39,917 nt of DNA from a virus: positions 1-39,917 of the IMG/VR virus record IMGVR_UViG_3300031521_000165; one strand, given 5' to 3'. Of the stretch, positions 5,066-39,917 are shown piece after piece (position 1 is the first letter of the stretch; each line of letters opens with the position of its first letter). Both the position numbers and the translations under genes were made by a program. Under the pieces are notes generated by a model that was not told the DNA's origin, ran no database searches, and saw only the letters and a program-made list of their open reading frames with translations.

Positions 5066-5983
5066 TTAAAATTTTAATTGTGAGTAAATTTGTTTGTTTG
5101 TGTTTGCTATGGTTTGAACTTCGGCAATTGCTTGGTCTAGGTTCATAAGTCCGTCTATAGCCTTGTGAGTAATTGCATCGTAGGCGTAAAATTCGCGCCC
5201 TTCCAAAATACCTTCTACCGATTGATCAATTTTTGGTCGACCTTCTTTGATTATATTTTGAAAATGGATTGCAAATGGTGTGAGCGATTCTTCGATCATT
5301 GGTTTCTGATCGCCTTCCAATGCTTTACGATAGGTAAGATTCTTGAAACTCGATTCGGGTGGATACACGGATATAATTTTTATACCCACGTTTTCGAGCA
5401 TCTTTGTTTGATCGATAAGTTGCGCGAATGTGCCAACAGAACCCCACTTGCACATGCGATTGGTTGCAAATGTTTTATCGCAAAACGATGCAACGTATGC
5501 CCCACCCGATTCGCACATACCGTCGATAAGTCCGATTGATGGTTTTGTACGGTTACGCATTGCATCTTCGAGTTGGTAAATGGAGTCGGTTGTTCCGCCT
5601 GGTGTGTTGAAAAGTAAAACGGTACCTGCAATATTGGTAGCCTTATCGGCTTCGCGTATCAGGTTGGCGATAGAGTCCATACCGATAACGTAACGATATT
5701 CGTCCCAATCGATACCCGAATATTTCATCATCATACCGATAATGGGTAGAATAACTACCGATCCATCTTCGTAACCGGCAAATGGTCCGTTATCATCGCC
5801 ACCGTCCATACAATCAGAACAGATCATATTTGGGTGCAGCTTTACAATAGTAGGTTTTACACTTTTATCGCCAGCGTACCGGGAAGAAGAAATAAGTCGG
5901 GAAACAAGAAGTTCAACTTCATTTATACCCGATTCGGATAAAAGAAGTGGTGATGAGGTAAGTTCGGTGAGTAGGTTTCGCAT
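5066..5983 (-). CDS. S49/SppA-like serine protease, likely prohead protease
   Basis: A 305-residue protein with the ClpP/SppA crotonase-like fold: the glycine-rich turn FNTPGG (125-130), the nucleophile motif C-E-S-G-G-A (Ser159), then WGSVGTFAQ (180-188). Lys214 in SSFKNL is placed like the catalytic lysine of SppA. There is no signal peptide or transmembrane segment, so it acts in the cytoplasm or inside the prohead. Phage S49 proteases next to a capsid gene remove scaffold or N-terminal capsid segments; here the substrate is probably the charged N-terminus of the capsid protein. Residues 55-65 hold a C-x-x-C and a D/G-rich loop of unknown role. Confidence 0.88.
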   Translation of the reverse strand: MRNLLTELTSSPLLLSESGINEVELLVSRLISSSRYAGDKSVKPTIVKLHPNMICSDCMDGGDDNGPFAGYEDGSVVILPIIGMMMKYSGIDWDEYRYVIGMDSIANLIREADKATNIAGTVLLFNTPGGTTDSIYQLEDAMRNRTKPSIGLIDGMCESGGAYVASFCDKTFATNRMCKWGSVGTFAQLIDQTKMLENVGIKIISVYPPESSFKNLTYRKALEGDQKPMIEESLTPFAIHFQNIIKEGRPKIDQSVEGILEGREFYAYDAITHKAIDGLMNLDQAIAEVQTIANTNKQIYSQLKF

Positions 5984-6495: not shown

Positions 6496-7026
6496 TTATT
6501 CTCTGACTTTCAATTGTTTACGATTGCGATTTATCTCAAAGCGCATATTTTCACATATTTTCACACGATTGCGGTAATCAAACTTCGCAATCATGTCGAA
6601 AGTGAAGAAATATTTGTCCTGATTTAGCTCCCTCAAAACGGCGTCGATGATCTTATCGCGACCATAGTTTTTTTCGTACCCGATCACAAAAAATTCACGC
6701 ATCGTAATTTCGTAATAAAAGGCGATGGCCTGTTGCAATTGTTCCTGTTTCCATTTCGGAATATGGATATTGCTATATCGTACTTTGTAGTGCGACGTGG
6801 CCGTCACCGGTAGGGAAACCGAAACCGGATTTTTGTGCTGTATGTTCACAGGTCGATCTGAAATGATCCACATCGAATTGATGAGTTTACCAACCGGGTG
6901 ATCGAGATTGATAACTACATTTCCGTGTTCGTCCATTCCAAACAAATACTTGATGAAAAGTACATATTTTTCTTTTAATTCGAAAACCAATATCGGGCGA
7001 AAGGTGTCGGTAGTATTCATACGCAT
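6496..7026 (-). CDS. Hypothetical protein, first gene of structural block 1
   Basis: A 176-residue, mostly basic protein with no membrane segment. Residues 26-46 include a D-E-H-G-N-V-V turn and H-P-V-G-K; the C-terminal half is rich in R, K and aromatic residues. It is the first gene after the large regulatory gap and has a good promoter 62 bases upstream. A second ATG two codons later could also be used. Function not recognised. Confidence 0.7.
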   Translation of the reverse strand: MRMNTTDTFRPILVFELKEKYVLFIKYLFGMDEHGNVVINLDHPVGKLINSMWIISDRPVNIQHKNPVSVSLPVTATSHYKVRYSNIHIPKWKQEQLQQAIAFYYEITMREFFVIGYEKNYGRDKIIDAVLRELNQDKYFFTFDMIAKFDYRNRVKICENMRFEINRNRKQLKVRE

Positions 7027-7087
7027 AAAATTTTGAGGAGTTAGTTAATGTAGTAGTATTGGTCAGTAAAAAATAGCTTTTTAAAGG

Positions 7088-7119
7088 TAAAGATAATATT
7101 TAATTCGCTAATTATCAAA
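7088..7119 (-). promoter_or_regulatory. Bacteroidetes-type promoter for structural block 1
   Basis: On the minus strand TTTG (7119..7116), 20 bases, then TATCTTTA (7095..7088), one mismatch from TAnnTTTG. The first gene starts at 7026, leaving a leader of about 55 bases. Unlike the other structural blocks it lacks the GTCC extension of the -33 box. Confidence 0.6.
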
Positions 7120-7229
7120 CTTTTAAACATATTTTTTTGCACAAAATTGCATTTTTTTGGTGTTTTTTGTTGATAAAAATCCGAATTTTCGGCCGTTTTT
7201 TTTATTCGTTTTTTTTCATTGATGTAAAA

Positions 7230-7423
7230 GTTTACCTACCACATACCACAAGCATATAACATGCTGTAGTACAATGTGTTTTGTGTGGTAGGTTATGTGG
7301 TAGGCTGTATGCGTGGTAGGTTGTAGTTTGTAGTGGTAAGTATGCATTTTTATGCGTAGATACCACATTTTTAGTACTGATTATCTGTTAGTTAAGTACT
7401 GTTGTGGTATGTGGTAGGTAAAC
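7230..7423. other. Iteron-like repeat cluster, candidate replication origin
   Basis: A 22-bp perfect inverted repeat (7230..7251 and 7402..7423) frames about 150 bases holding further copies of GTGGTAGG at 7285, 7297 and 7313, plus 7411 in the right arm and the reverse complement at 7235. A second imperfect dyad, GTGGTA / TACCAC, spans about 7333..7366. T-rich tracts (7130..7220) and an AT-rich run (7440..7500) flank the cluster. Such iterons with AT-rich flanks are typical of initiator-binding origins; a regulator-binding array is the alternative. Confidence 0.5.
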
Positions 7424-7483
7424 TAAGCTATAAATATGTTCGTGTTAGAGTAAAATTTATATAATTAAAAATATAATTTTTTA

Positions 7484-7726
7484 TTAATATATATAATATG
7501 TATAGGAGTTCGGTGCTGAACAGTCAGTAAAGTGAAAACAGAACCTGTATTGATGATGTGCTGTGAGTGGGGTGCAATACAGGTCCTGTGTGGGGAGTTG
7601 GTTGGGGTATTTTCGTTTGAAAATAGTTTGCAAATAATCGGGTAATGCTATATGTGTCTTGTACTTATTTCGTATGTTTGTAGTATATTCTACGAGAACA
7701 AGTCTTTTGGTTGCGCAAAGTTCCAT
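7484..7726 (-). CDS. Doubtful small reading frame after the adenine methylase
   Basis: Starting at the ATG at 7726 this frame would encode 80 residues, including a plausible stretch (HIALPDYLQTIFKRKY) after the methylase stop. It overlaps the methylase by 37 bases and its 3' half spans a 10-bp inverted repeat (7543..7584), which may mean the area is not coding. Function unknown. Confidence 0.3.
   Translation of the reverse strand: MELCATKRLVLVEYTTNIRNKYKTHIALPDYLQTIFKRKYPNQLPTQDLYCTPLTAHHQYRFCFHFTDCSAPNSYTYYIY
7543..7584. repeat. Inverted repeat downstream of the adenine methylase
   Basis: ACCTGTATTG (7543..7552) and CAATACAGGT (7575..7584) are perfect complements separated by 22 bases. No T-run follows, so it is not an obvious terminator; it may be a protein-binding site or RNA structure at the end of the early operon. 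Confidence 0.6.
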
Positions 7727-8511
7727 ACCAGTATTTCGGTGCGGGTTTTGGGCTTTGCTCCGTCGCATACGCCCAGGTTCGACGTCTTTATGATTACCTC
7801 GATCGTTTTATACTGCCAACCGTACCGGTGAATGTGGTAGCGTAATGTTTGACTCCAGTAGTTGGATAGAATGAACTTTCCTTTGATCACGGCCAGTGCC
7901 TGGAGTAATTCGTACAGATCGGCGTGTGTATACCCGGTATAGTGACCTTGGTAGCTTCCGGGATACGGTGGATCGATATAAAAAATTGTTTCCGGTGTAT
8001 CGCGTTCACTGATTACTTTGATAGCATCTCTGCAGGTTATCTGAACGGTTTGTAATCTATCGTAAAGTTCGGTGCTGAAACTATTCCGCTTATTCTGCAT
8101 ATAAACGCCCGTGTGGCTTCCGGATGTTCCGTTCGACCATTTCCACCCGCCGTGCATTGAACCGGCGAAACTGCCGTTGGTAATCAACCACACAGCCCAC
8201 GCTTGCTCCACCTTACTTGCCGGCAGGCGATCGTTCCAAATATCTTTTGCAACCAGGTACTGGCGTTCGCTGTTGAAGGTTTGCTGAACCAATGCGTGCA
8301 GCTGCACGAAATGGGTTTGCGCTACCTGGTAGAAGTTGATAAGCCGATCATCGATATCGTTGATCACTTCGAGGTACGACTTCGGTTTCCTGAAGAATAC
8401 GGCACCGCCTCCGAAAAACGGCTCACAATAGATTTTGTGAGCCGGTATCATTTTTATTATCTCGTCGGCCAGACCTTGCTTGCCTCCGTAATAGGTTATT
8501 GGGGTTTTCAT
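7690..8511 (-). CDS. DNA adenine N6-methyltransferase, D12 (Dam) class
   Basis: A 273-residue enzyme that transfers a methyl group from S-adenosylmethionine to adenine N6 in a short DNA target. The SAM-binding motifs YYGGK (7-11) and EPFFGGGAVFF (30-40) and the catalytic I-D-P-P-Y-P (179-184) are intact and in the D12 order. Length is normal for a Dam-type enzyme. It overlaps the previous methylase gene by 4 bases (ATGA), so the two are co-translated. No restriction endonuclease adjoins it, so it most likely protects phage DNA from host restriction or marks it for regulation. Confidence 0.93.
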   Translation of the reverse strand: MKTPITYYGGKQGLADEIIKMIPAHKIYCEPFFGGGAVFFRKPKSYLEVINDIDDRLINFYQVAQTHFVQLHALVQQTFNSERQYLVAKDIWNDRLPASKVEQAWAVWLITNGSFAGSMHGGWKWSNGTSGSHTGVYMQNKRNSFSTELYDRLQTVQITCRDAIKVISERDTPETIFYIDPPYPGSYQGHYTGYTHADLYELLQALAVIKGKFILSNYWSQTLRYHIHRYGWQYKTIEVIIKTSNLGVCDGAKPKTRTEILVWNFAQPKDLFS

Positions 8512-12607: not shown

Positions 12608-13900
12608 CTATTCTCCTTCTTTTTTATTAGTTATTTCGTCATTCGTTCTAAATACAATTTGATATGCTTTTACAGATTGCATATTAAATGCCGGTGATCT
12701 GAATGACTTAGTATGATAGCCGAGCGCGTTGAGGGCTTTACCGATGGTCTGCGGTGATATGTTTTTCATATCGTCCGACGTTACGCGCTTGAGTGCCGGC
12801 AAGCGTTCGAGGATTTGCGACGGGGTTAGTAGTTCGCCCGGTTCATCGCCTTCGGGTTTACGAACTGTTTTCTGCATGATACGCATTTCATTTGTATATT
12901 GCTTGTAGCGTTCGTTGTAGGCGTTCAGTTCGTCGTAGTCCGGTTTATAAAAACGATACTCAAAATTGCTCGATTCGAATAGGGTAAGCATTTCGGCCCA
13001 CAACTGATCGCGGTCTACTACGGTGGAGTAGTTTTGGTCAATGTCCAGAATTTCAATTGTTCCTACGCGTCGGGTATCGCTATCGTAGTATGGCATTATG
13101 AACCCGCCATTTTCGGGGTTAAGGTTGGTAGACATGATTCCTGCACCTAATCTTTTTTTATTTGAAGCTCTTAATTCACCTCGTTCTTTTATTGATATTG
13201 AATCTGCTGTTTGAACTTTCTTCCATGTAGTAATTGTTGATTTATTGATTCCGATTGTTTCCTCGTAATTGACCAACATAAACCGGGTATATGCATCTTC
13301 TATGTCGAAGTTCTTTGGATTGTTGCTCGATTCGATATAGTAATCTTGCAACGATTCCGGTAATAGCCAACGGGTGAGATATGTTTTACCCGATCCTCCT
13401 GCACCTTGTACTAATACAAGCATTATATCATTTGAAAACTTTGTAAGCCACATGGCTACGTTTGCTACCATCCATTTACGCATCAGGTTACGTGCGCGAG
13501 TGATGTATTCTTCATCTGTTTTATCTTCGAAAGCGCGAACGGTGATGTGCGACATCAATAGATCCAGTTGCGAAGTTCCGTTCCATTTTCCGCGTATACC
13601 GTCGAAGTACAGTTTTATCGGGTCGATGTGCGGTATATAGTAGGGGGAACACATGATTTTTCGGAGTGTGGCGTCGCCCACTGTTATGCCATGCGCTGCG
13701 AGATGAAGCGATATCTCGCTGAACTTCGGTTCTATTCCTTTGCGATCGGTATCTTTGCATACAATGTATTTTTTTGATGGGTCCTGAACCGATATCTGAA
13801 TATCGTAATGCTCAAGAAGAAATGAAGCGACGTATTGAATTTTATCATCGAATAGCGATTTTTGAGTATCTTTTTTCGCGGGAGCTGTAAGTTGTGCCAT
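12608..13900 (-). CDS. VapE/VirE-type replication ATPase (primase-helicase-like)
   Basis: A 430-residue P-loop ATPase of the virulence-associated E family. Walker A is G-A-G-G-S-G-K-T (166-173); the acidic Walker B region is F-M-L-V-N-Y-E-E-T (207-215). Residues 60-115 match the region before the ATPase core in this family (around GITVGDATLR and YFDGIRGKW). The C-terminus (about 335-410) resembles a winged-helix DNA-binding module. These proteins act as replicative helicase/initiator proteins in phages and islands of Bacteroidetes, so it is the best candidate to act at the repeat cluster near 7230. Confidence 0.88.
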   Translation of the reverse strand: MAQLTAPAKKDTQKSLFDDKIQYVASFLLEHYDIQISVQDPSKKYIVCKDTDRKGIEPKFSEISLHLAAHGITVGDATLRKIMCSPYYIPHIDPIKLYFDGIRGKWNGTSQLDLLMSHITVRAFEDKTDEEYITRARNLMRKWMVANVAMWLTKFSNDIMLVLVQGAGGSGKTYLTRWLLPESLQDYYIESSNNPKNFDIEDAYTRFMLVNYEETIGINKSTITTWKKVQTADSISIKERGELRASNKKRLGAGIMSTNLNPENGGFIMPYYDSDTRRVGTIEILDIDQNYSTVVDRDQLWAEMLTLFESSNFEYRFYKPDYDELNAYNERYKQYTNEMRIMQKTVRKPEGDEPGELLTPSQILERLPALKRVTSDDMKNISPQTIGKALNALGYHTKSFRSPAFNMQSVKAYQIVFRTNDEITNKKEGE

Positions 13901-16517: not shown

Positions 16518-16667
16518 TTACTCTCCCACCGCCTGAACGCTTTCAGTGCGGGTTTCCTTGTCGGGGTGTATGTTATGCAGTGTCCAATTAAGTATGAGCG
16601 AAAATACGATAGCTAAAACCGCAAATAATGTCCATTTCATGCAGCTACATTCTCGTTTACTGATCAT
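16518..16667 (-). CDS. Small membrane protein (49 residues)
   Basis: ATG at 16667..16665 overlaps the upstream stop as ATGA, and the TAA is at 16520..16518. The product has a polar start, one hydrophobic segment (about residues 11-30, including TLFAVLAIVFSLIL) and a charged tail (H-P-D-K-E-T-R-T-E-S). A second ATG at codon 10 could also be used. A small hairpin (GGGAG/CTCCC) follows. Probably a single-pass membrane peptide of unknown role. The 180 bases beyond it, up to 16335, hold no gene I can support. Confidence 0.65.
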   Translation of the reverse strand: MISKRECSCMKWTLFAVLAIVFSLILNWTLHNIHPDKETRTESVQAVGE

Positions 16668-17167
16668 AGCTGTTCACTTTTAGCGTTAGAAATACTACTT
16701 GTAATTGCTTCAGCTGATGCTGTTGGCTCGTCACCATTAAGTTGTTTATCAGACGGCTTAAAAACAGACTTTGAACCGCTATCGATAAAAAGATCAAGCA
16801 TTGCCAGTGCGCGTTGTAGGTTGTTTCCAGACATTGTTTTCAACCGGCGAAGTCTTGTAACTTCTTGTCTGCTGACTAGATAAATTCCGTATTTTTCAGT
16901 TAATGCTTCTTTATAAAAGTTCCATGCTTCTTGGAATTCAGTTCCTTCGAATGGCATCTTTACGGGAATGGGTGCAATAGGATCTATTTGCTTATCAATC
17001 TCGTTGTATTGGTTCACTACTAATCCAAAGTGCTTTACTAGTTTTTGAAATGCCTTAGCAGTTCTCGTATCGGTAATCCCTTCGTTTATTTCATTGATCA
17101 TACCCGATAGTTGATTCATTGATTGGGAGTATGAATCCCACAGAGGTTTGAGAGTTTGATTTTCCAT
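16664..17167 (-). CDS. Hypothetical protein with domain shared with the lysogeny region
   Basis: A 167-residue protein. About residues 78-145 match the 88-residue protein encoded rightward at 19194 (W-x-F-Y-x-E, K-[YF]-G, then a helix ending L-x-x-[FL]-I-D-[SN]-G-x-K-S and D-x-Q-L). The N-terminal 75 residues are a separate helical region. No known family assigned. Confidence 0.7.
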   Translation of the reverse strand: MENQTLKPLWDSYSQSMNQLSGMINEINEGITDTRTAKAFQKLVKHFGLVVNQYNEIDKQIDPIAPIPVKMPFEGTEFQEAWNFYKEALTEKYGIYLVSRQEVTRLRRLKTMSGNNLQRALAMLDLFIDSGSKSVFKPSDKQLNGDEPTASAEAITSSISNAKSEQL

Positions 17168-19468: not shown

Positions 19469-19692
19469 ATAATACACGAATACACGATAAACCACGAACT
19501 ACACTATAATAAGAAGTAAACTGGAAAAGGGTTTATAATAACTTAGAGTTTCCCTCCAGCTCCACTAAATTTCAAAAGTAGTTGAAAATGAACACATTAA
19601 AATCGTGTGAAACTTTTTTTAATTCGTGTATTACAAAAAAGAGACTAAAACTATCTAAAAACCAATTGATTACCTGACTATAATACACGATT
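19469..19692 (+). other. attP: Candidate attP with integrase arm sites
   Basis: The sequence GTTTCCCTCCAGCTCCACTA (core at about 19546..19568) resembles the 3' end of a tmRNA gene, a common integration target. Around it, copies of TAATACACGAwT lie at about 19469..19480 and 19681..19692, with an inverted copy at 19621..19633; shorter TACACGA/TCGTGT copies occur near 19481 and 19603. This arrangement directly upstream of the integrase fits a core flanked by arm-type sites. Host attB is not visible here. Confidence 0.5.
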
Positions 19693-20901
19693 ATGGGACG
19701 AAAAACAAGTATTATTATATTTCCAACTTTAAATGACCGAGGCGGTGATCTATCACGAAAGTGGTATGTAGAATGGAAATATCAGATTCCGGGTGAACCT
19801 GAAAAAAGAATTGAAAGAGTTTATAAAGGGCTAGCAACCGGAACAAATGCTGAACGCAGAAAAATTGCTAATGCAATTATTGACGAGAAAACTGAATGGC
19901 TTAAGTCTGGAGAGTATTTAAGCGGATCTTTGAAAAAAGTATATGAAGATGAATTGATGTATAGGAATGAAGCTAAAATTTATGGGAAATATAAGAGTAA
20001 TGTAATTACTTCAAGAACCTATCTTAGCGAATTTTTATCTATGAAAAAACAGACTTTCAAAAATCCAAAGTCATATATGGATTTTCAGTCTAAGCTTAGG
20101 ATTTTCAATGTTTGGTTAGAAAAGAATAAACTTGATCAATTAAGCATAAAGCTAATTAAACGTCAACACATTATTGATTTTTCTAAGTATCTTTCTGAGG
20201 ATGAAAATCTAAGTAGATTGACAATAGATAAGTATATTCAATGTATAAGTGCTTTTTTCGAAAATGAACTTTTAAACCAAAGAATAGAAAGTAATCCTGT
20301 TTTGAAAATCCCTAAAATGGGGAAAATAGTTGATTGTTCGGCTGTTCCATTTCATAACAATGATCGGGAAAAACTGAAAAATGCTATTTCAAATGTTGAC
20401 CCACAACTTTGGCTAGCTTGCCAGATTGAATACTATTGTGCCATTAGACCCGGTACTGAGTTGCGACTCATGAAAATTAAGTGGATTGATTTTGATAAAA
20501 AATGCTTCAGGATTCCAAATATAGAAGCTAAAAACTCTTTGACTGAAATTGTTGTTATTCCAGATCAATTGATGAGTGAAATGATCAAAATGAACTTACA
20601 AACATATCATTTCGATTTATATTTATTTGGTAAAAATGGTTGTCCTGGTACAATTCCTCTTGGAAAGAACACCCTTAGAAACAAATTTAATAGATATAGA
20701 GATGCCTTGAACATTTCTACTGAATATAAATTTTACTCATGGAAGCATACAGGAGCAATTCAACTCCTTGAAAATGGAGTTAAAGAACATGATTTGCAAA
20801 ATCACTTAAGACATAAAAGTTATACAACTACAGAAGTATATCTGAAGAAAAAAACACCTCAAAGAAATAGTACAGTCAATCAGTTTACATCAGATATTTA
20901 A
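19693..20901 (+). CDS. int: Tyrosine-family site-specific integrase
   Basis: A 402-residue recombinase: an N-terminal arm-binding part (1-90), a SAM-like core-binding domain (about 100-205), and the catalytic domain (about 215-395). Catalytic residues are Arg252 (A-I-R-P-G-T-E), Lys280 in the beta-hairpin, His374 (L-R-H-K-S) and the nucleophile Tyr383. The usual H-x-x-R box reads Y-S-W-K (348-351), then H-T-G, so arginine is replaced by lysine; I associate this variant with Bacteroidetes phage integrases. It inserts the phage at attP/attB and lies directly after the candidate attP. Confidence 0.92.
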   Translation: MGRKTSIIIFPTLNDRGGDLSRKWYVEWKYQIPGEPEKRIERVYKGLATGTNAERRKIANAIIDEKTEWLKSGEYLSGSLKKVYEDELMYRNEAKIYGKYKSNVITSRTYLSEFLSMKKQTFKNPKSYMDFQSKLRIFNVWLEKNKLDQLSIKLIKRQHIIDFSKYLSEDENLSRLTIDKYIQCISAFFENELLNQRIESNPVLKIPKMGKIVDCSAVPFHNNDREKLKNAISNVDPQLWLACQIEYYCAIRPGTELRLMKIKWIDFDKKCFRIPNIEAKNSLTEIVVIPDQLMSEMIKMNLQTYHFDLYLFGKNGCPGTIPLGKNTLRNKFNRYRDALNISTEYKFYSWKHTGAIQLLENGVKEHDLQNHLRHKSYTTTEVYLKKKTPQRNSTVNQFTSDI

Positions 20902-25969: not shown

Positions 25970-27856
25970 CTACTCGTACAGTTTAGTAGTTCGGAGGTTG
26001 GCTTCTATCATTTTAATTCCGTTATCTGAAATTTCGTACTTCATATTTTCAACAATTACTGGTTGACCACCTACCAGTTTTTGTTGTCCTATGTCGAAAT
26101 TTTGAAATTGAACTGGATACAAATTAAAATTGGTAAGAATAGGCTGATAGGAGTTATTGAGTACAACGTTGAATTTTTTCCAAAACGTTTCAAATAATCC
26201 TTTTTCTCCTCCGTATACCATGTGTATATTTCCGTTCGGTTGACCGATATTATTATATGAATGCGTTGATGCAAAAACAAGCTTTTCACTGTATAATTTT
26301 TTTATATCTGTATTTTCGTTTGGATTAGCAACTCCCTGCCCATGAAAAAAACAAAACATTATAGGGCATACATCTGAAGATGATGAATTATCTGCTAATA
26401 AATCATCTTCCACACGTATACTTGTATTCAACATTCGCTTATCTCCTACAAATGGAACTGGATAATAAAATCCTTTCCATCTAGAACCAGATATAGCCGG
26501 TATTATAAGTAAATCTGCATACACCATTGGTATTGCTGTATGTGTTGATTTCATTTCCTGAGCAGTTAAGTCTTTAATCTCATCATAGTAATCGAGTGAA
26601 TCATCTCCAATCGTTGTCATTTTTCCATCCTTAACCTGAAAAATAGTACATAAATTTTTAGAGAAATAGTAGCCATTACTTAGTGTAGTTGTAGCTGAAA
26701 AAATAAGATAATCCATTGGAATGATTGCTTTATTTTCAACTAATTTCTGATAAGTAGAAAAATTGGATTTTACCTGATCGAGAGAATGATCGCACGAAAG
26801 CTTCAGCGATTTATAGCTTTCAATATTATTCACCGGTTCTACCGACACATTTTTTGTAAAATCTGCATCAACGTTATCAATTAATTCATTCATGAACACG
26901 ACTTTTACATCAAGACCGTTATCAGATAGAAAGAAATCACATCCGTAACGTTTTCGTATTCCTTCCAGAAAATCATTTACCGTGCCGGTAGGTACCAGAT
27001 GTTCATAATGAAGTATTCCGGTCATAATTGCATCACAAGTATTATTGAGTATAACCTCTTTTTGTAAATCGGGATATTTAGTCAAATAGTCCTGATTAAG
27101 CGTATACCCAAAATACTGAAACAGATGTGTAAGTACATACGATAGTTTCAGAAATGGAGTAACATTATATCCCATAGGATAATTAATTGTAATATTATCT
27201 ACAGTATCAGTCTGTATATTTTTAGCAATAAGTGGGAAATAAGGCTTTGAATTTTTATCATATATCAAATGACCTAGATCAATAAGCGGAGCATTCAGTA
27301 ATAAGTATTTTGTGTAGGTAAATTGTGAAGATGATGTTTCGCCTACTGCAGGTAACGTAATGGTTCGGCTTTCCATTTTTGTACAAACAGTAAATACAAA
27401 GAAATCATCCACTACATCACCCATCATTACACTTTCGAAGTGATTAAGCCATGCCAACATTTTAGGATTATACGGCAAATTGAAATCATCGCGTACCACG
27501 TTACTGAATACTTTAGGCATAGTAACTTCATTCATTTGCGAATAAAAAATAGATTCGTTGAATAGACATGTAGCCGTTATCATGTTTCGCGAAGCGGAAG
27601 TAACTTGCAATGTTGCCGGGCGTTGGTATAGTCCGGCATTGATAATTATTTTTCGTTTTGGTAAGTATTTATATAGCCTATCAGTGCGATATGGATACTC
27701 CAGCAACTGAAAATTATTATCCGTTGGTGGCAAGGATATCGATAGCGAAACGCTTCCTTTATCGCTCAGAAAAGGATTTGTTTTTTCAATACTCAGTTTG
27801 AATTTAGCGGGCAAATCGTAATCATGCCCGGTTTCGTAGTCTATTAATCGTATCAT
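25970..27856 (-). CDS. Distal tail protein / tail hub
   Basis: A 628-residue protein overlapping the tape measure gene by 4 bases. The N-terminus (M-I-R-L-I-D-Y-E-T-G-H-D-Y-D-L, then I-S-L-P-P-T-D-N-N) resembles distal tail proteins of Bacteroides phages. The middle (about 250-400) has a pattern of hub-type folds, including G-I-R-K-R-Y-G-C-D-F. Position after the tape measure supports the call; exact role is inferred. Confidence 0.7.
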   Translation of the reverse strand: MIRLIDYETGHDYDLPAKFKLSIEKTNPFLSDKGSVSLSISLPPTDNNFQLLEYPYRTDRLYKYLPKRKIIINAGLYQRPATLQVTSASRNMITATCLFNESIFYSQMNEVTMPKVFSNVVRDDFNLPYNPKMLAWLNHFESVMMGDVVDDFFVFTVCTKMESRTITLPAVGETSSSQFTYTKYLLLNAPLIDLGHLIYDKNSKPYFPLIAKNIQTDTVDNITINYPMGYNVTPFLKLSYVLTHLFQYFGYTLNQDYLTKYPDLQKEVILNNTCDAIMTGILHYEHLVPTGTVNDFLEGIRKRYGCDFFLSDNGLDVKVVFMNELIDNVDADFTKNVSVEPVNNIESYKSLKLSCDHSLDQVKSNFSTYQKLVENKAIIPMDYLIFSATTTLSNGYYFSKNLCTIFQVKDGKMTTIGDDSLDYYDEIKDLTAQEMKSTHTAIPMVYADLLIIPAISGSRWKGFYYPVPFVGDKRMLNTSIRVEDDLLADNSSSSDVCPIMFCFFHGQGVANPNENTDIKKLYSEKLVFASTHSYNNIGQPNGNIHMVYGGEKGLFETFWKKFNVVLNNSYQPILTNFNLYPVQFQNFDIGQQKLVGGQPVIVENMKYEISDNGIKMIEANLRTTKLYE

Positions 27857-30800
27857 TTGCGTGCCCCCAATCCTTTGTATTCTTCAGCAAGTGCCGAAGA
27901 TTTTTTAAACTCCCAATAATTTATTTCCGCTTCTATTTTGGTTGATTTCAATTCAGAAAGCCAATTTTCAAGCCCTACGATAAATGAATCATATCTACTT
28001 CCGTTATTTCCTGAAGAATTACTATCACCCGTATATCCACCATCGGCAAAACCTGCAGGCAGCGGGTTTCGCTTGCTGCGTTGCTGCTTTACATTGTCTA
28101 TTTTACGAACATAGGATGCTGTAACAGGATTACGCATTTCTTGAGGTGCTACTACATATTCCTCTCTATGTACATCTCCTGCAACCTCTAATCTGTTACC
28201 ATCACCAGTATAACCACCATCTGAAAATCCGGGGTTATTTACCACCACTTCACCGGATTTATTGCTTGAGCTACTCGATGAACTACTTGAAGAATCAACA
28301 GTCATCGATTTAATTTTATTACGTTCAGCTGCTGCAGCTGCTACTTGTGCTGCAGCTGTACCAACAAGTAATCCAGTCATTGCTACACCGGCCATGATAT
28401 TAAATGGTGCCGGCAATTCCATTGCTGTAGACCATGCATTCATTATACCGGTAGCAGTGGCAACGCCAATTTGTGCTACCTGAATACCAAACTGAGCATC
28501 GGCATATTTCTTTTGTACTTCGAGTTCGGCCACTGCCTGGTCGTGTTGCAGTTTTTCTTTCTTAGCTGCATAATCAGCATCGCTTTCGTTTAGTCCGGCA
28601 AGTCGTTTCTGGTAATCGGCTTGTACGGTTGCTGTTTCGGCACTTTGCAGGGCTGTAACAAAATTGGATCCAGCGGTAACAAGTGAACCAACCTGGTCCG
28701 TAAATTTTTTAGCTGCATTGAGTTTTAATTTCAGTTTTTCGTCCTGAAATTCTTGTTCGGAAAGTAGACCTTCGTCGTACTCTTTTTGTAATGCTGCTTT
28801 CTTTATTTCATACTCACCAAGTATAGAGCCTTTTGCATACTTAGTAGTTATTTTACTTTTTTCAGACTCAAATTTCTCATGCTGTTTAATCTTCTGATCA
28901 TCAATTTGCGCTTGAGTATCGGCAACAGCTTTTTGACTGGCCTGTAATGCTGCAATGTATTCGGGAGTTGCAGCCATTTCGAGTCCGGCCAGCAGATCGT
29001 TGAATTCTTGCTGTGCCTGCAATCGTGCATCAAGCCCTTCCGAATTTATACGATCAACTTCATCATCGTACTGTTTTTTGTTTAGTTTTCCATTGGCAAA
29101 TTCCGATTTTGCATATTGAAGTTTAGCATTGGTAGTAGCTTCAATTGTTTTTAATTGAGCCGTATTTGAACGATTTAGAGAATCTAGAACGGCTTTATCA
29201 ACTGCACTTTCAATATCTTCGCGTTTCTTTTCACTCTGCACTACAATATCAGTCAATATAGCTTGATGCTCTTTGTAAATTATTTCGTATGCTTTTAGTT
29301 TTTCACCTTTCAATCCACTATTTTCGGGTGATTTATCCGATGAAATTCCGGTATCTTTTTTCAACCGGGCATAACGGGCATTTTCGGCATCAATGGTAAT
29401 TTTTTGCACATTAGAGATATATAATTCTTCCAATCGCAATTTTTCGTCCAGCTGCTCTTTCGTCAGATTTACCAATTCTTTTCCAAATAAATCAGCAGTT
29501 TTTAGACGAACGTTATTATCTTGTTCCTCTGCTTTGAGTTGTTTTGATGCATCTTCGAAAATACGTTGACGAGCTGCCAATTGATCATCCAATATCTTTT
29601 TAGCTGCTTTTGAAGCATCTTCTAGTTTCTTTCTAAGCTTTTCCTGTTTTTTTATTTCATCGTCGGTAAGTTCCTTTTCTAATTTATTATTAGTTCTGAT
29701 TACTCTTTGTAGTTCCTGCTTTGCTTCACCTTGTACGCGAATAGAAGTCACTTGTTTTTCAACTAACCTATCAATTTCATCGCCTACCGTTTTGTTATAT
29801 TTATGGAAGAATGCAGCCATATTTTTTACTGAGTTTCCTGTTTTAGCTTCGAGCGCATCCAGTTGTTTTGATGCATTTGCACCAGCTACAGCATTTGTTC
29901 CACCAAATGAACCTCCTGTAGATCCGGATGTATTCATTATACCTTCTAGATCCGCTTTATGTTTCAAATAAGATTTAGTAGATGCCATTAAAGCCTGAAA
30001 ATCTTTCTTATTATAATTTTCCATGAAAGTTTCATATTCACCTTTGCTCATTCCGGTTAAAGATGATATTTTTTTCATTTGATTTTTATAGTCTTTATCG
30101 GCAATATCTTGCTTTAATTTAGCCTCATCTTCAGTCATTTTTACAATTTCCTTACCAGCTTCCAACCGTTTTTTTGTATCTGCGTTCACATTTCGTTGTT
30201 GTTCCAATAAATCTTGTTTTTTATTGAAATTCTTAGCTTCCTCTACCGTTAAAGCCTGTTGTTCCTTTTTAATTTCACCAAGTGTAAGTTTATATTCACG
30301 CCCGGCATTGAATGCTTCAATCATTCCTCTGAATGAAAAATCACCACTTGCAAGTGATTTCAATAGATAATCCCATGAATTAGTGAAACCTTCAATATCA
30401 GCTTTAAATTCTTTTGAAGTAGCACGTGTACTCATCATCACTTCACCAACAAAAGCAAGTGCACCAGCTACTAATCCAATCACAGCTGCATATTTTCCCA
30501 AAGCAGGAATCATACCCATTACATCTCCACTTTTAGCAGCTGAAAGGAAACTACTAAAACTGGCAGCTCCTTTATTCAAAGTATTACTGACATCATCCGT
30601 TTTACTTTTTAGGTTTACTTTTGCCTGAGCAACTGCATTAATTTCTTTTTCTAGTTTTGCGTATTCTTCAGGGTGAAGTACTTTAGAAGTATTATCAAGT
30701 TGCTTCTGTAAATCTTTCTCAGTTTTCATAAGCTGTGTTTTGGTCATATTAGCATAACCCAGCGTTTTTTCATGCTCCTTAATCTTTAGCGTATTATAAG

Positions 30801-31023
30801 CTATAGATTTTGAGTTTTCTTTGTACGAAGCATCAAGGTTTTTCCATGCTTCACTGTTTTTTCTACCTTGAGCTACTAAATCATTCATGTCTTTAAGCAA
30901 TGATTTATTCGATGCAGTCAATTCTTTATTAGCAAGTGTTACCTTGTGAATTTCTTGCTGTGTTTTTGAAGCATCCAGCGAAAGGATCCATTTTATTTCG
31001 TCATCTTTTAATTTTCCAGCCAT
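27853..31023 (-). CDS. Tail tape measure protein
   Basis: A 1056-residue protein that sets tail length. Residues 25-140 and about 430-760 are long charged coiled coils; a hydrophobic segment lies at 178-197, and an Ala/Gly-rich hydrophobic stretch falls at about 860-905. A serine run (near 915) is followed by two copies of a G-F-x-D-G-G-Y-T-G-D motif, which recurs near the end of many tape measure proteins. It is the longest gene of the genome and sits between small tail proteins and the distal tail protein. Confidence 0.93.
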   Translation of the reverse strand: MAGKLKDDEIKWILSLDASKTQQEIHKVTLANKELTASNKSLLKDMNDLVAQGRKNSEAWKNLDASYKENSKSIAYNTLKIKEHEKTLGYANMTKTQLMKTEKDLQKQLDNTSKVLHPEEYAKLEKEINAVAQAKVNLKSKTDDVSNTLNKGAASFSSFLSAAKSGDVMGMIPALGKYAAVIGLVAGALAFVGEVMMSTRATSKEFKADIEGFTNSWDYLLKSLASGDFSFRGMIEAFNAGREYKLTLGEIKKEQQALTVEEAKNFNKKQDLLEQQRNVNADTKKRLEAGKEIVKMTEDEAKLKQDIADKDYKNQMKKISSLTGMSKGEYETFMENYNKKDFQALMASTKSYLKHKADLEGIMNTSGSTGGSFGGTNAVAGANASKQLDALEAKTGNSVKNMAAFFHKYNKTVGDEIDRLVEKQVTSIRVQGEAKQELQRVIRTNNKLEKELTDDEIKKQEKLRKKLEDASKAAKKILDDQLAARQRIFEDASKQLKAEEQDNNVRLKTADLFGKELVNLTKEQLDEKLRLEELYISNVQKITIDAENARYARLKKDTGISSDKSPENSGLKGEKLKAYEIIYKEHQAILTDIVVQSEKKREDIESAVDKAVLDSLNRSNTAQLKTIEATTNAKLQYAKSEFANGKLNKKQYDDEVDRINSEGLDARLQAQQEFNDLLAGLEMAATPEYIAALQASQKAVADTQAQIDDQKIKQHEKFESEKSKITTKYAKGSILGEYEIKKAALQKEYDEGLLSEQEFQDEKLKLKLNAAKKFTDQVGSLVTAGSNFVTALQSAETATVQADYQKRLAGLNESDADYAAKKEKLQHDQAVAELEVQKKYADAQFGIQVAQIGVATATGIMNAWSTAMELPAPFNIMAGVAMTGLLVGTAAAQVAAAAAERNKIKSMTVDSSSSSSSSSSNKSGEVVVNNPGFSDGGYTGDGNRLEVAGDVHREEYVVAPQEMRNPVTASYVRKIDNVKQQRSKRNPLPAGFADGGYTGDSNSSGNNGSRYDSFIVGLENWLSELKSTKIEAEINYWEFKKSSALAEEYKGLGARK

Positions 31024-38142: not shown

Positions 38143-39861
38143 CTATGCAGAGTAATTCCCCGCTCCCATTGCTTTCGTTTGCTTCCGTTCGGAGTCGGGC
38201 AACAAGTAACTGAACTCACCCCAAATCAGGTACATCAGTGCTGATGATATTTGTGTAGAGTAATATGCCTGATCTTTGTATTCCAACAATTTTTCTGAGC
38301 TTTTATCGAGTTCGATTTTACCTTCAGTACGTTTTATAGGTGAATGGTTGATACTCGAAATGGTTGCTTCACATTCATTTTCATCAATAAGTATATCCGA
38401 TCGGTTTCCTTCGTTTTTCCCGAAAACCAAATTCAAAAGCCGGTAATGCTGCGAATAATAGATAGTCGGTTGACCTAAACTCATCAGCGTAACGTTCCAA
38501 CCTCGTTTTGTAAGTGCAATTTTCAACATCTGAGCATCTGTATCGTTCAAATCACCACTAGGTTTATAAAACTTACGGTAATGAGGGTCGCGTTGGTTAG
38601 CAGCTCGGTCGTAATGGAAAATAATCGACTTATTTCCGGTCATTCGCTGTGGCTTGAAAAAATTATCGAATTTTTCGGCCATTTCTTCATGCTGATCAGG
38701 GTGAATCACCCACATATCCTTTATAACCCTGAATTCTTTCTTTTTCTTGTTATGCTGTGCCACTTCAAGACTCGAAAACGGTCCCGGATCTAGTCCAATG
38801 ATTAGCGGTAAATTCTTATCCCAATATTTCAGATTTTTGCATGTATGATTAAATTTTTCTTCAATTGAAATATTATCGATATTTCCATAAGTATAACCGT
38901 CATCAAAAGTATGCTCCTTTCCAAATTTACCGAAAAACCGATCTTTCACCTTATGTTTCCTAACTGCAAAAATTGAAGTATTCAAACGATCTACATCCTT
39001 AATATTTTTAATCATATTTTCGATGTAATCAATACCCAGAATTTTTACATTAGAAAAAGAAGAAGCACGTAAATAATAAGTTTGATTTAAACGAAGTTCA
39101 GATAATCTTTCATTCCATCGTTCAATAAATTTATTCAGCTTTTCTTGCTTTTTTATATCTAAATTGTTTTCTGCAACTACTAAGTCAGCCATACGAATAT
39201 CAACCTCAAGAGCTAATTCAGCAATACACTCTACTAGCTCATCACTCATATCCGATTGGTATTTTGTCCACCAATCTTCATCAGTCTCAAAATTTGGAGT
39301 TGATGAAGTACCTGTAATACCTCCATAATAATGTGACAATCCAAATTTGGAACGATCTGAACGCAAAGCAGGAAATACACGTTCTGTAAACTTATCCTCT
39401 CTAATACGAAGCATTTCATCACAAATCAAGTGTGCACCATTCTTACCAAGTGCAGATTCGGGTCTGTCTGCAGAAACAAACTGAACAACTGTACCAGTAC
39501 AGAAAGATATAGTTTGCTTCCAATTATCAATACCAGTATGACATCTCCCAAAATGTTTTGGAGGTTCTTTCCCTATTTCAAAATAAACACCACGCTCATA
39601 GTTCTCATAGAAGTATTCCATCAGTCCCGGAAGAATATTATCGAGAATAGTCTTATATGTTGGAGCTGCCATTATTATAACACAACCCTTCATATCCCAT
39701 TGTATTCTGTCGAGTCGTGGTGCAAGTATGTGTGTTGTCTTACCTGATCCACGACCAAGCTCACCAAATAGAAATGTTGTATCAATAAGTTTAACTAATA
39801 TCTGAGCGATAGATAAATAGTTTTCTTCAAAATAGTCAGGTGAGTATTTGCGTACTTTCAT
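38143..39861 (-). CDS. terL: Terminase large subunit
   Basis: A 572-residue packaging motor. The ATPase half has Walker A G-R-G-S-G-K-T (36-42) and Walker B L-I-C-D-E (145-149). The nuclease half begins near I-I-G-L-D-P-G (about 350), the first acidic motif of the RNase H-like fold, with further acidic residues toward the C-terminus. It pumps DNA through the portal and cuts it. On the closed circle it follows terS by 5 bases. The C-terminal tail is rich in G, N and S. Confidence 0.93.
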   Translation of the reverse strand: MKVRKYSPDYFEENYLSIAQILVKLIDTTFLFGELGRGSGKTTHILAPRLDRIQWDMKGCVIIMAAPTYKTILDNILPGLMEYFYENYERGVYFEIGKEPPKHFGRCHTGIDNWKQTISFCTGTVVQFVSADRPESALGKNGAHLICDEMLRIREDKFTERVFPALRSDRSKFGLSHYYGGITGTSSTPNFETDEDWWTKYQSDMSDELVECIAELALEVDIRMADLVVAENNLDIKKQEKLNKFIERWNERLSELRLNQTYYLRASSFSNVKILGIDYIENMIKNIKDVDRLNTSIFAVRKHKVKDRFFGKFGKEHTFDDGYTYGNIDNISIEEKFNHTCKNLKYWDKNLPLIIGLDPGPFSSLEVAQHNKKKKEFRVIKDMWVIHPDQHEEMAEKFDNFFKPQRMTGNKSIIFHYDRAANQRDPHYRKFYKPSGDLNDTDAQMLKIALTKRGWNVTLMSLGQPTIYYSQHYRLLNLVFGKNEGNRSDILIDENECEATISSINHSPIKRTEGKIELDKSSEKLLEYKDQAYYSTQISSALMYLIWGEFSYLLPDSERKQTKAMGAGNYSA

Positions 39862-39917
39862 ATTATCTATTCTTTTACAACTGTAAAATCTGCATCCTCA
39901 ATACCAAGTTCTCTTGT
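39791..39917. repeat. Terminal direct repeat (contig overlap), right copy
   Basis: Identical to 1..127. It contains the terL start and, at 39867..39917, the last codons of terS on the minus strand, so terS appears truncated here only because the contig ends. True genome length on closure is 39790. Confidence 0.95.

Follow-up and report, generated by a model that had tools for sequence, protein, structure and literature searches.

We identified a 196-bp repeat array at about 7.2 kb in the window (i.e., the whole stretch of DNA analysed here, 39,917 nt of an IMG/VR virus record), which is very probably a phage replication origin of the iteron type, served by the VapE-like protein that the phage encodes; the type of origin is most likely that used by self-loading helicases. 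An earlier note on this DNA had read the site in one of two ways, as the origin at which the VapE-like ATPase acts in replication or as a site of master regulation. Comparison supports the former, as arrays lie mostly on the 3′ side of genes for VapE homologues and the protein is predicted to have a self-loading helicase fold, and disfavours the latter, as arrays are also found after the terminase gene and in elements whose examined stretch contains no phage late operon.

The window carries a perfect 127-bp direct repeat at its ends (1–127 and 39791–39917) and thus represents a circular genome, complete at 39,790 bp; judged from sequence, it has the gene set of a temperate phage of the Bacteroidota type (Table 1). 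The early and late operons share a common direction and adjoin at 7027–7689, so that the array does lie at the boundary of early and structural genes, where the earlier note had placed it. The early genes include more than one DNA methyltransferase as well as, early in the operon, a gene encoding a LuxR-type HTH protein. Two genes that we take, by eye, to encode the small (77–700) and large (38143–39861) terminase both have close homologues in related contigs. Each of the five prophages compared encodes, near VapE, a homologue of a 167-aa early protein (16664–17167), which could take part in replication as a partner. A late protein (1517–2128) contains a long VDETKVDET-type repeat, at the same place as an AELKAKEEADA repeat in relatives.

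Table 1. Coordinates of the array, of neighbouring sequence elements and of selected genes in the window.
Feature	Position	Strand	Remarks
Head maturation protease	5066–5983		
First late gene	6496–7026	-	176 aa
Promoter-like sequence	7089–7119	-	TTTG-N20-TAtcTTT, in the interval between array and late gene
Inverted-repeat arm, VapE-distal	7229–7251	-	tandem iterons at 7237 and 7244, 7 bp apart
Central iteron group	7285–7338	+	GTGGTA at 7285, 7297, 7313 and 7333
Single opposite iteron	7361–7366	-	TACCAC; the nearer copy in the VapE-proximal arm is 43 bp away
Inverted-repeat arm, VapE-proximal	7402–7424	+	tandem iterons at 7404 and 7411, 7 bp apart
A+T tract, VapE-proximal side	7451–7490		100% A+T; candidate melting element
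D12 methyltransferase	7690–8511		last gene of the early operon
VapE-like protein	12608–13900	-	430 aa, early gene, Pfam VapE-like domain; proposed initiator helicase
attP core	19551–19565	+	TCCCTCCAGCTCCAC; common to the 18-bp direct repeat bounding prophage G325
Tyrosine integrase	19693–20901	+	adjoins the attP core
Tape-measure gene	27853–31023		

The sequence GTGGTAGG occurs at 7285, 7297, 7313 and 7411 and inverted at 7235, all as noted previously, and nowhere else in the window. The GTGGTA core is present in nine copies within the site and 29 in the whole window; six of the nine are on the plus strand (7285, 7297, 7313, 7333, 7404 and 7411) and three are inverted (7237, 7244 and 7361), while 200 first-order Markov simulations yielded at most three copies per 200 bp. 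A variant, GTTGTA at 7320, lies near the position of a further copy in relatives. The inverted repeat that frames the site had been described as perfect and 22 bp long; it is perfect, and one base longer (23 bp), with arms 150 bp apart, and the longest perfect inverted repeat in 100 simulations (arms <400 bp apart) was 17 bp. Along the direction of transcription, the array presents two forward copies (arm), one inverted copy, four forward copies and two inverted copies (arm). The AT-rich flanks reported earlier are real, including the tract of pure A+T given in Table 1.

A search with the arm pair identified five further IMG/VR contigs in which the array pattern is kept, three of which (L005, L007 and L008) are near-identical in this region. 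In an alignment of the five, the 17-bp arm CCTACCACATACCACAA is invariant while its flanks have drifted, and the array is better conserved than its surroundings. One relative (G001; L001 2770–3603) has a second tyrosine recombinase gene, XerC-like as named by eye, just upstream of the array; the window lacks such a gene at the corresponding position. No match was obtained when phages and plasmids were searched with the site by blastn, nor in a protein-only search with the first late gene. A loosened form of the window arm-pair pattern had no match in the genome_contigs collection because relatives use other repeat words; the layout rule that they share emerged after searching by VapE.

Between the array and the late genes, all four genomes checked present the sequence TTTG-N20-TAnnTTT, which resembles a promoter of the Bacteroidota type; 7089–7119 is probably the late promoter, separate from the array. 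A contig with a related late operon (L009; protease ~50% identical) has ~130 bp ahead of its first late gene and no array there, and its genome contains no VapE match; this joint absence of VapE and array supports the origin reading. A related late-operon fragment with no known VapE (L010) contains a repeat cluster of another kind (nine copies of AACAGT), an observation that speaks against the origin reading.

VapE homologues in Bacteroidales genomes are accompanied by arrays of the same build made of other repeat words, and across phages, prophages and mobilizable elements of Bacteroidota the VapE homologues have equivalent arrays, most of them located 3′ of the gene. The survey took in 24 genomic VapE loci and a further 54 on viral contigs, which, after removal of duplicates and addition of the window, gave 63 distinct proteins; an array was defined as at least six copies of one 6-mer within 230 bp. 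With 3′ stretches extended up to 15 kb for 15 entries and 5′ stretches mostly reaching up to 3 kb, an array was found on the 3′ side of 45 of the 63 distinct homologues and on the 5′ side of 2/61 (42/63 and 0/61, respectively, for at least seven copies). For equal flanks of 600 bp, the six-copy counts were 27/62 on the 3′ side and 0/55 on the 5′ side. Two entries of the former count, with unequal stretches, were counted through another repeat than the one of interest: L113 through an AAGTGC repeat (a six-copy TAGTAA cluster is also present) and L059 through its best cluster, an unrelated tandem repeat (eight copies of AGGTAA are also present). The latter contig carries, 3′ of the VapE iteron array, a separate tandem array with ~19 copies holding ACATTTA (G734; L059 3155–3361). 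Within the genome set, 13 of the 24 loci beat all 200 shuffles of their own 3′ flank, a count for which the wrong frame was used for L035 and the array of L033 lay beyond 450 bp, both of these loci having arrays; the gene body reached six copies in none of the 24.

Twelve homologues with no array within 3 kb were traced along their contigs, and for nine of these an array was found 6–14 kb further 3′; in eight of the nine distal cases it follows TerL. In one VapE subclade (L129–L138), the array is located 0.4–0.6 kb past the large terminase gene and 9–14 kb from VapE. By the six-copy definition, 18 of the 63 homologues have no array, some of them on short contigs; the clearest exception is L036 (G195), where the late operon closely follows VapE and no array was seen in the 8-kb contig. 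VapE and array also occur together in integrative elements with an integrase, a small HTH protein and relaxase-like genes (names given by eye); no phage head operon was present in the stretch examined. Among annotated phages, six of the 29 records with VapE matches were checked for arrays. The cultured Flavobacterium phage vB_FspS_mymlan6-1 (L152 3858–4760) is the sole one of the six with an array of the window's kind: a candidate array of GTTACC copies lies 3′ of the gene annotated as virulence-associated protein E and likewise has spacings of 43 and 41 bp. Cellulophaga phage phi38:2 has 15 copies of AGCTAA, mostly within an annotated gene, and four human-gut fragments have no six-copy array 3′ of VapE (L155 has four copies of GTGATA). 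Three VapE homologues from Bacteroidota (L068, L069 and L070; G486, G584 and G742) are encoded by genes with in-frame TGA codons, which may reflect recoding or decay.

Across these arrays the repeat word changes (TACCAC, TACTAC, TACAAC, TTCAAC, TTACCT and others), while order and spacing stay. The shared layout is two forward copies, 43 bp, one inverted copy, ~27 bp, several forward copies, 41 bp and two inverted copies. The spacings of the window (TACCAC; 7, 43, 28, 20, 16, 12, 41, 7), of G877 (TACTAC; 7, 43, 27, 11, 10, 16, 12, 41, 7) and of G337 (TTCAAC; 7, 43, 27, 11, 10, 16, 11, 41, 7) agree to within 1–2 bases despite the different words, and 28 of 38 hand-selected arrays open with two or three forward copies and then a single inverted one. 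In 15 complete arrays taken from this set, which are not independent and for which the randomisation values are illustrative, the arm and the inverted copy are 39–43 or 53 bp apart, and the central group lies 39–43 or 51–52 bp from the opposite arm; L110–L112, with a right-hand spacing of 66–70 because one central copy is not exact, were left out. Where spacers are longer, they are so by about one helical turn, on both sides in L082 and L108. A 40-bp tract of at least 90% A+T was found on the VapE-proximal side in all eight arrays checked. This layout is the trace expected if a looped protein–DNA assembly of fixed geometry were formed, and suggests a starter machine whose shape counts above the exact DNA word.

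An AlphaFold model of the VapE-like protein built on a 34-sequence alignment has a mean pLDDT of 86 and a pTM of 0.77; an earlier model from four sequences (pLDDT 54) was not used for the structure search. The best solved match is staphylococcal PriRep1 with dsDNA (7pds; Z 21.6, 361 aligned, rmsd 4.8), followed by the C-terminus of NrS-1 primpol (6k9c; 14.9), the SaPI5 primase-helicase (7ola/7om0; 12.4) and D5 (D5/E5; 11.6). A profile search of PDB sequences gave no match; relatedness to solved helicases is therefore by fold only. With a predicted C-terminal winged-helix-like region at ~337–417, a label read from secondary structure, the model has the D5/SF3-type helicase fold and C-terminal region of a SaPI/PICI-type initiator. 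In a test on 30 VapE–array pairs with motif classes assigned by hand and correction for the AAA+ domain, no support was obtained for the proposal that the repeat word is followed by the C-terminal domain (partial p 0.79), and the N-terminal domain tracked motif class weakly (p 0.05); the VapE-like protein is thus a putative reader of the iterons.

The proposed mechanism is that the VapE-like protein, as a D5/SF3-type self-loading helicase, would bind the GTGGTA/TACCAC iterons, with the outer inverted tandem pairs and inner copies, at their near-constant distances, positioning oppositely oriented VapE oligomers on looped DNA. The assembly would then melt the adjacent A+T tract, upon which the helicase could load and replication start. 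We infer binding, looping, melting and origin activity from array conservation, geometry, association with VapE in differing gene contexts and the fold match. The location of the array in the window, 5.2 kb 3′ of vapE and not adjacent to it, counts against an origin. GC skew, which the earlier note had put forward as a check, lends no support: at fourfold sites it keeps its sign across the array, with no sign change in any of five genomes. The T–A skew of these fourfold positions does switch sign at the array in each of the five genomes, for which gene content could account.

Other readings of the site were weighed against this one. In the window and in close relatives, the array directly precedes the first late gene and its conserved promoter-like sequence, and the early part of the operon includes the gene for the LuxR-type HTH protein. 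The repeats might therefore be a late-operon control site, bound by a phage activator that turns on the structural genes from a position ahead of the late promoter. We consider this unlikely: integrative elements with equivalent arrays lack a phage late operon in the stretch examined, the array comes after TerL and not before the late genes in most of the distal cases (8/9), and L009 has a late operon but neither VapE nor an array there; arrays so placed are not late-promoter elements. The position after TerL in one subclade would itself fit a packaging (pac/cos) site or a partition site, and in some phages repeat arrays are bound by terminase or ParB proteins. This explanation is very unlikely, however, as arrays co-occur with VapE and are present in mobilizable elements with no capsid genes in the stretch examined, and no ParA/ParB family match was found among the 20 window proteins scanned of ~50.

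The perfect inverted repeat, with 150 bp between its arms and a promoter-like sequence nearby, is also compatible with an invertible DNA segment, i.e., a phase-variable switch flanked by the 23-bp repeats, as in Bacteroidota. This we regard as highly improbable, since the asymmetric interior is in a single orientation in the window and in all five close relatives, the same arrow order recurs in 28/38 arrays, and a non-systematic look identified no promoter inside the segment. Least probable, with next to no chance of being correct, is an attP with integrase arm-type sites. Tyrosine-integrase attachment sites do contain repeated short sites in both orientations with A+T-rich spacers, which the array resembles, but the attP core lies beside int, which places attP away from the 7.2-kb site. 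Moreover, the integrated relative G325 is bounded by 18-bp direct repeats (15792 and 62726) next to an integrase, and its array (53606–53787) is internal and intact; window positions 19548–19565 match the bounding sequence, and the integration target presumably resembles the 3′ end of a tRNA or tmRNA. For this phage the attP reading is refuted, barring use of the site by a second recombinase.

A replication origin of the kind preferred here can be compared with several known systems. In phage P4, the sites are split between ori and crr, in contrast to the one compact array here. P4 alpha, mentioned in PMC6092414, is likewise an initiator of helicase type that serves a mobile element and has its own cognate ori. 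The same paper describes SaPI/PICI pri-rep-ori modules, which comprise a helicase-fold initiator, iterons on the 3′ side of its gene and an A+T-rich putative melting site, the two iteron sets of PICI origins lying around the A+T-rich region. Such self-loading helicase initiators recognise iterons directly 3′ of their own gene (PMC6092414 and PMC7581432). The likeness to SaPI/PICI modules includes the helicase-fold initiator, the 3′ iterons, the A+T-rich putative melting site and the match of the VapE model to the SaPI5 structures (7ola/7om0), PriRep1 being the closest structure of all. The arrays described here differ in having three groups (a tandem pair, a central group and an inverted tandem pair) at fixed spacings with the strongest A+T tract outside, and in their hosts, which are Bacteroidota phages and mobilizable elements. 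An array immediately 3′ of the initiator gene is seen within 600 bp for those 27/62 homologues but not in the window. As both gene adjacency and the two-set layout are absent from this phage, its site would work as a PICI-like origin without being a member of that group. SCCmec Cch2 (PMC7581432) belongs to the D5-type helicases, and direct repeats that lie immediately 3′ to its gene are bound by the C-terminal domain. Cch2 resembles the VapE-like system in helicase type and repeat position and differs in that only three iterons are reported, compared to nine GTGGTA copies in the window, and in that its inverted repeats were dispensable for binding. In the Vibrio phage satellite PLE, initiator-bound repeats in the origin were demonstrated by EMSA and deletion (PMC7145576); its initiator, RepA, is of the RepA_N type, unrelated to VapE, and its repeats, as described there, are organised differently.

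No description of an origin form with inverted tandem-pair arms was found in the open-access literature searched. We hold it about evenly balanced whether these arrays constitute a widespread undescribed class of origin in Bacteroidota phages, prophages and mobilizable elements, i.e., a ~190-bp scaffold with opposite tandem-pair arms and a fixed set of distances in helical phase (43/41 bp, or some ten bp longer) in which the repeat word is replaced wholesale. If they do, the initiator would read geometry as much as sequence, and the arrays would provide a natural series of orthogonal origin–initiator pairs. VapE-like proteins are widespread in Bacteroidota mobile elements, yet are named after virulence; on the reading given here they probably act as replication initiators whose origins have a signature that can be predicted. 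The combination of constant geometry and word turnover would make initiator–origin co-evolution testable, with the cultured phage mymlan6-1 as a tractable test system, and VapE arrays are candidate plasmid replicons for Bacteroidota.
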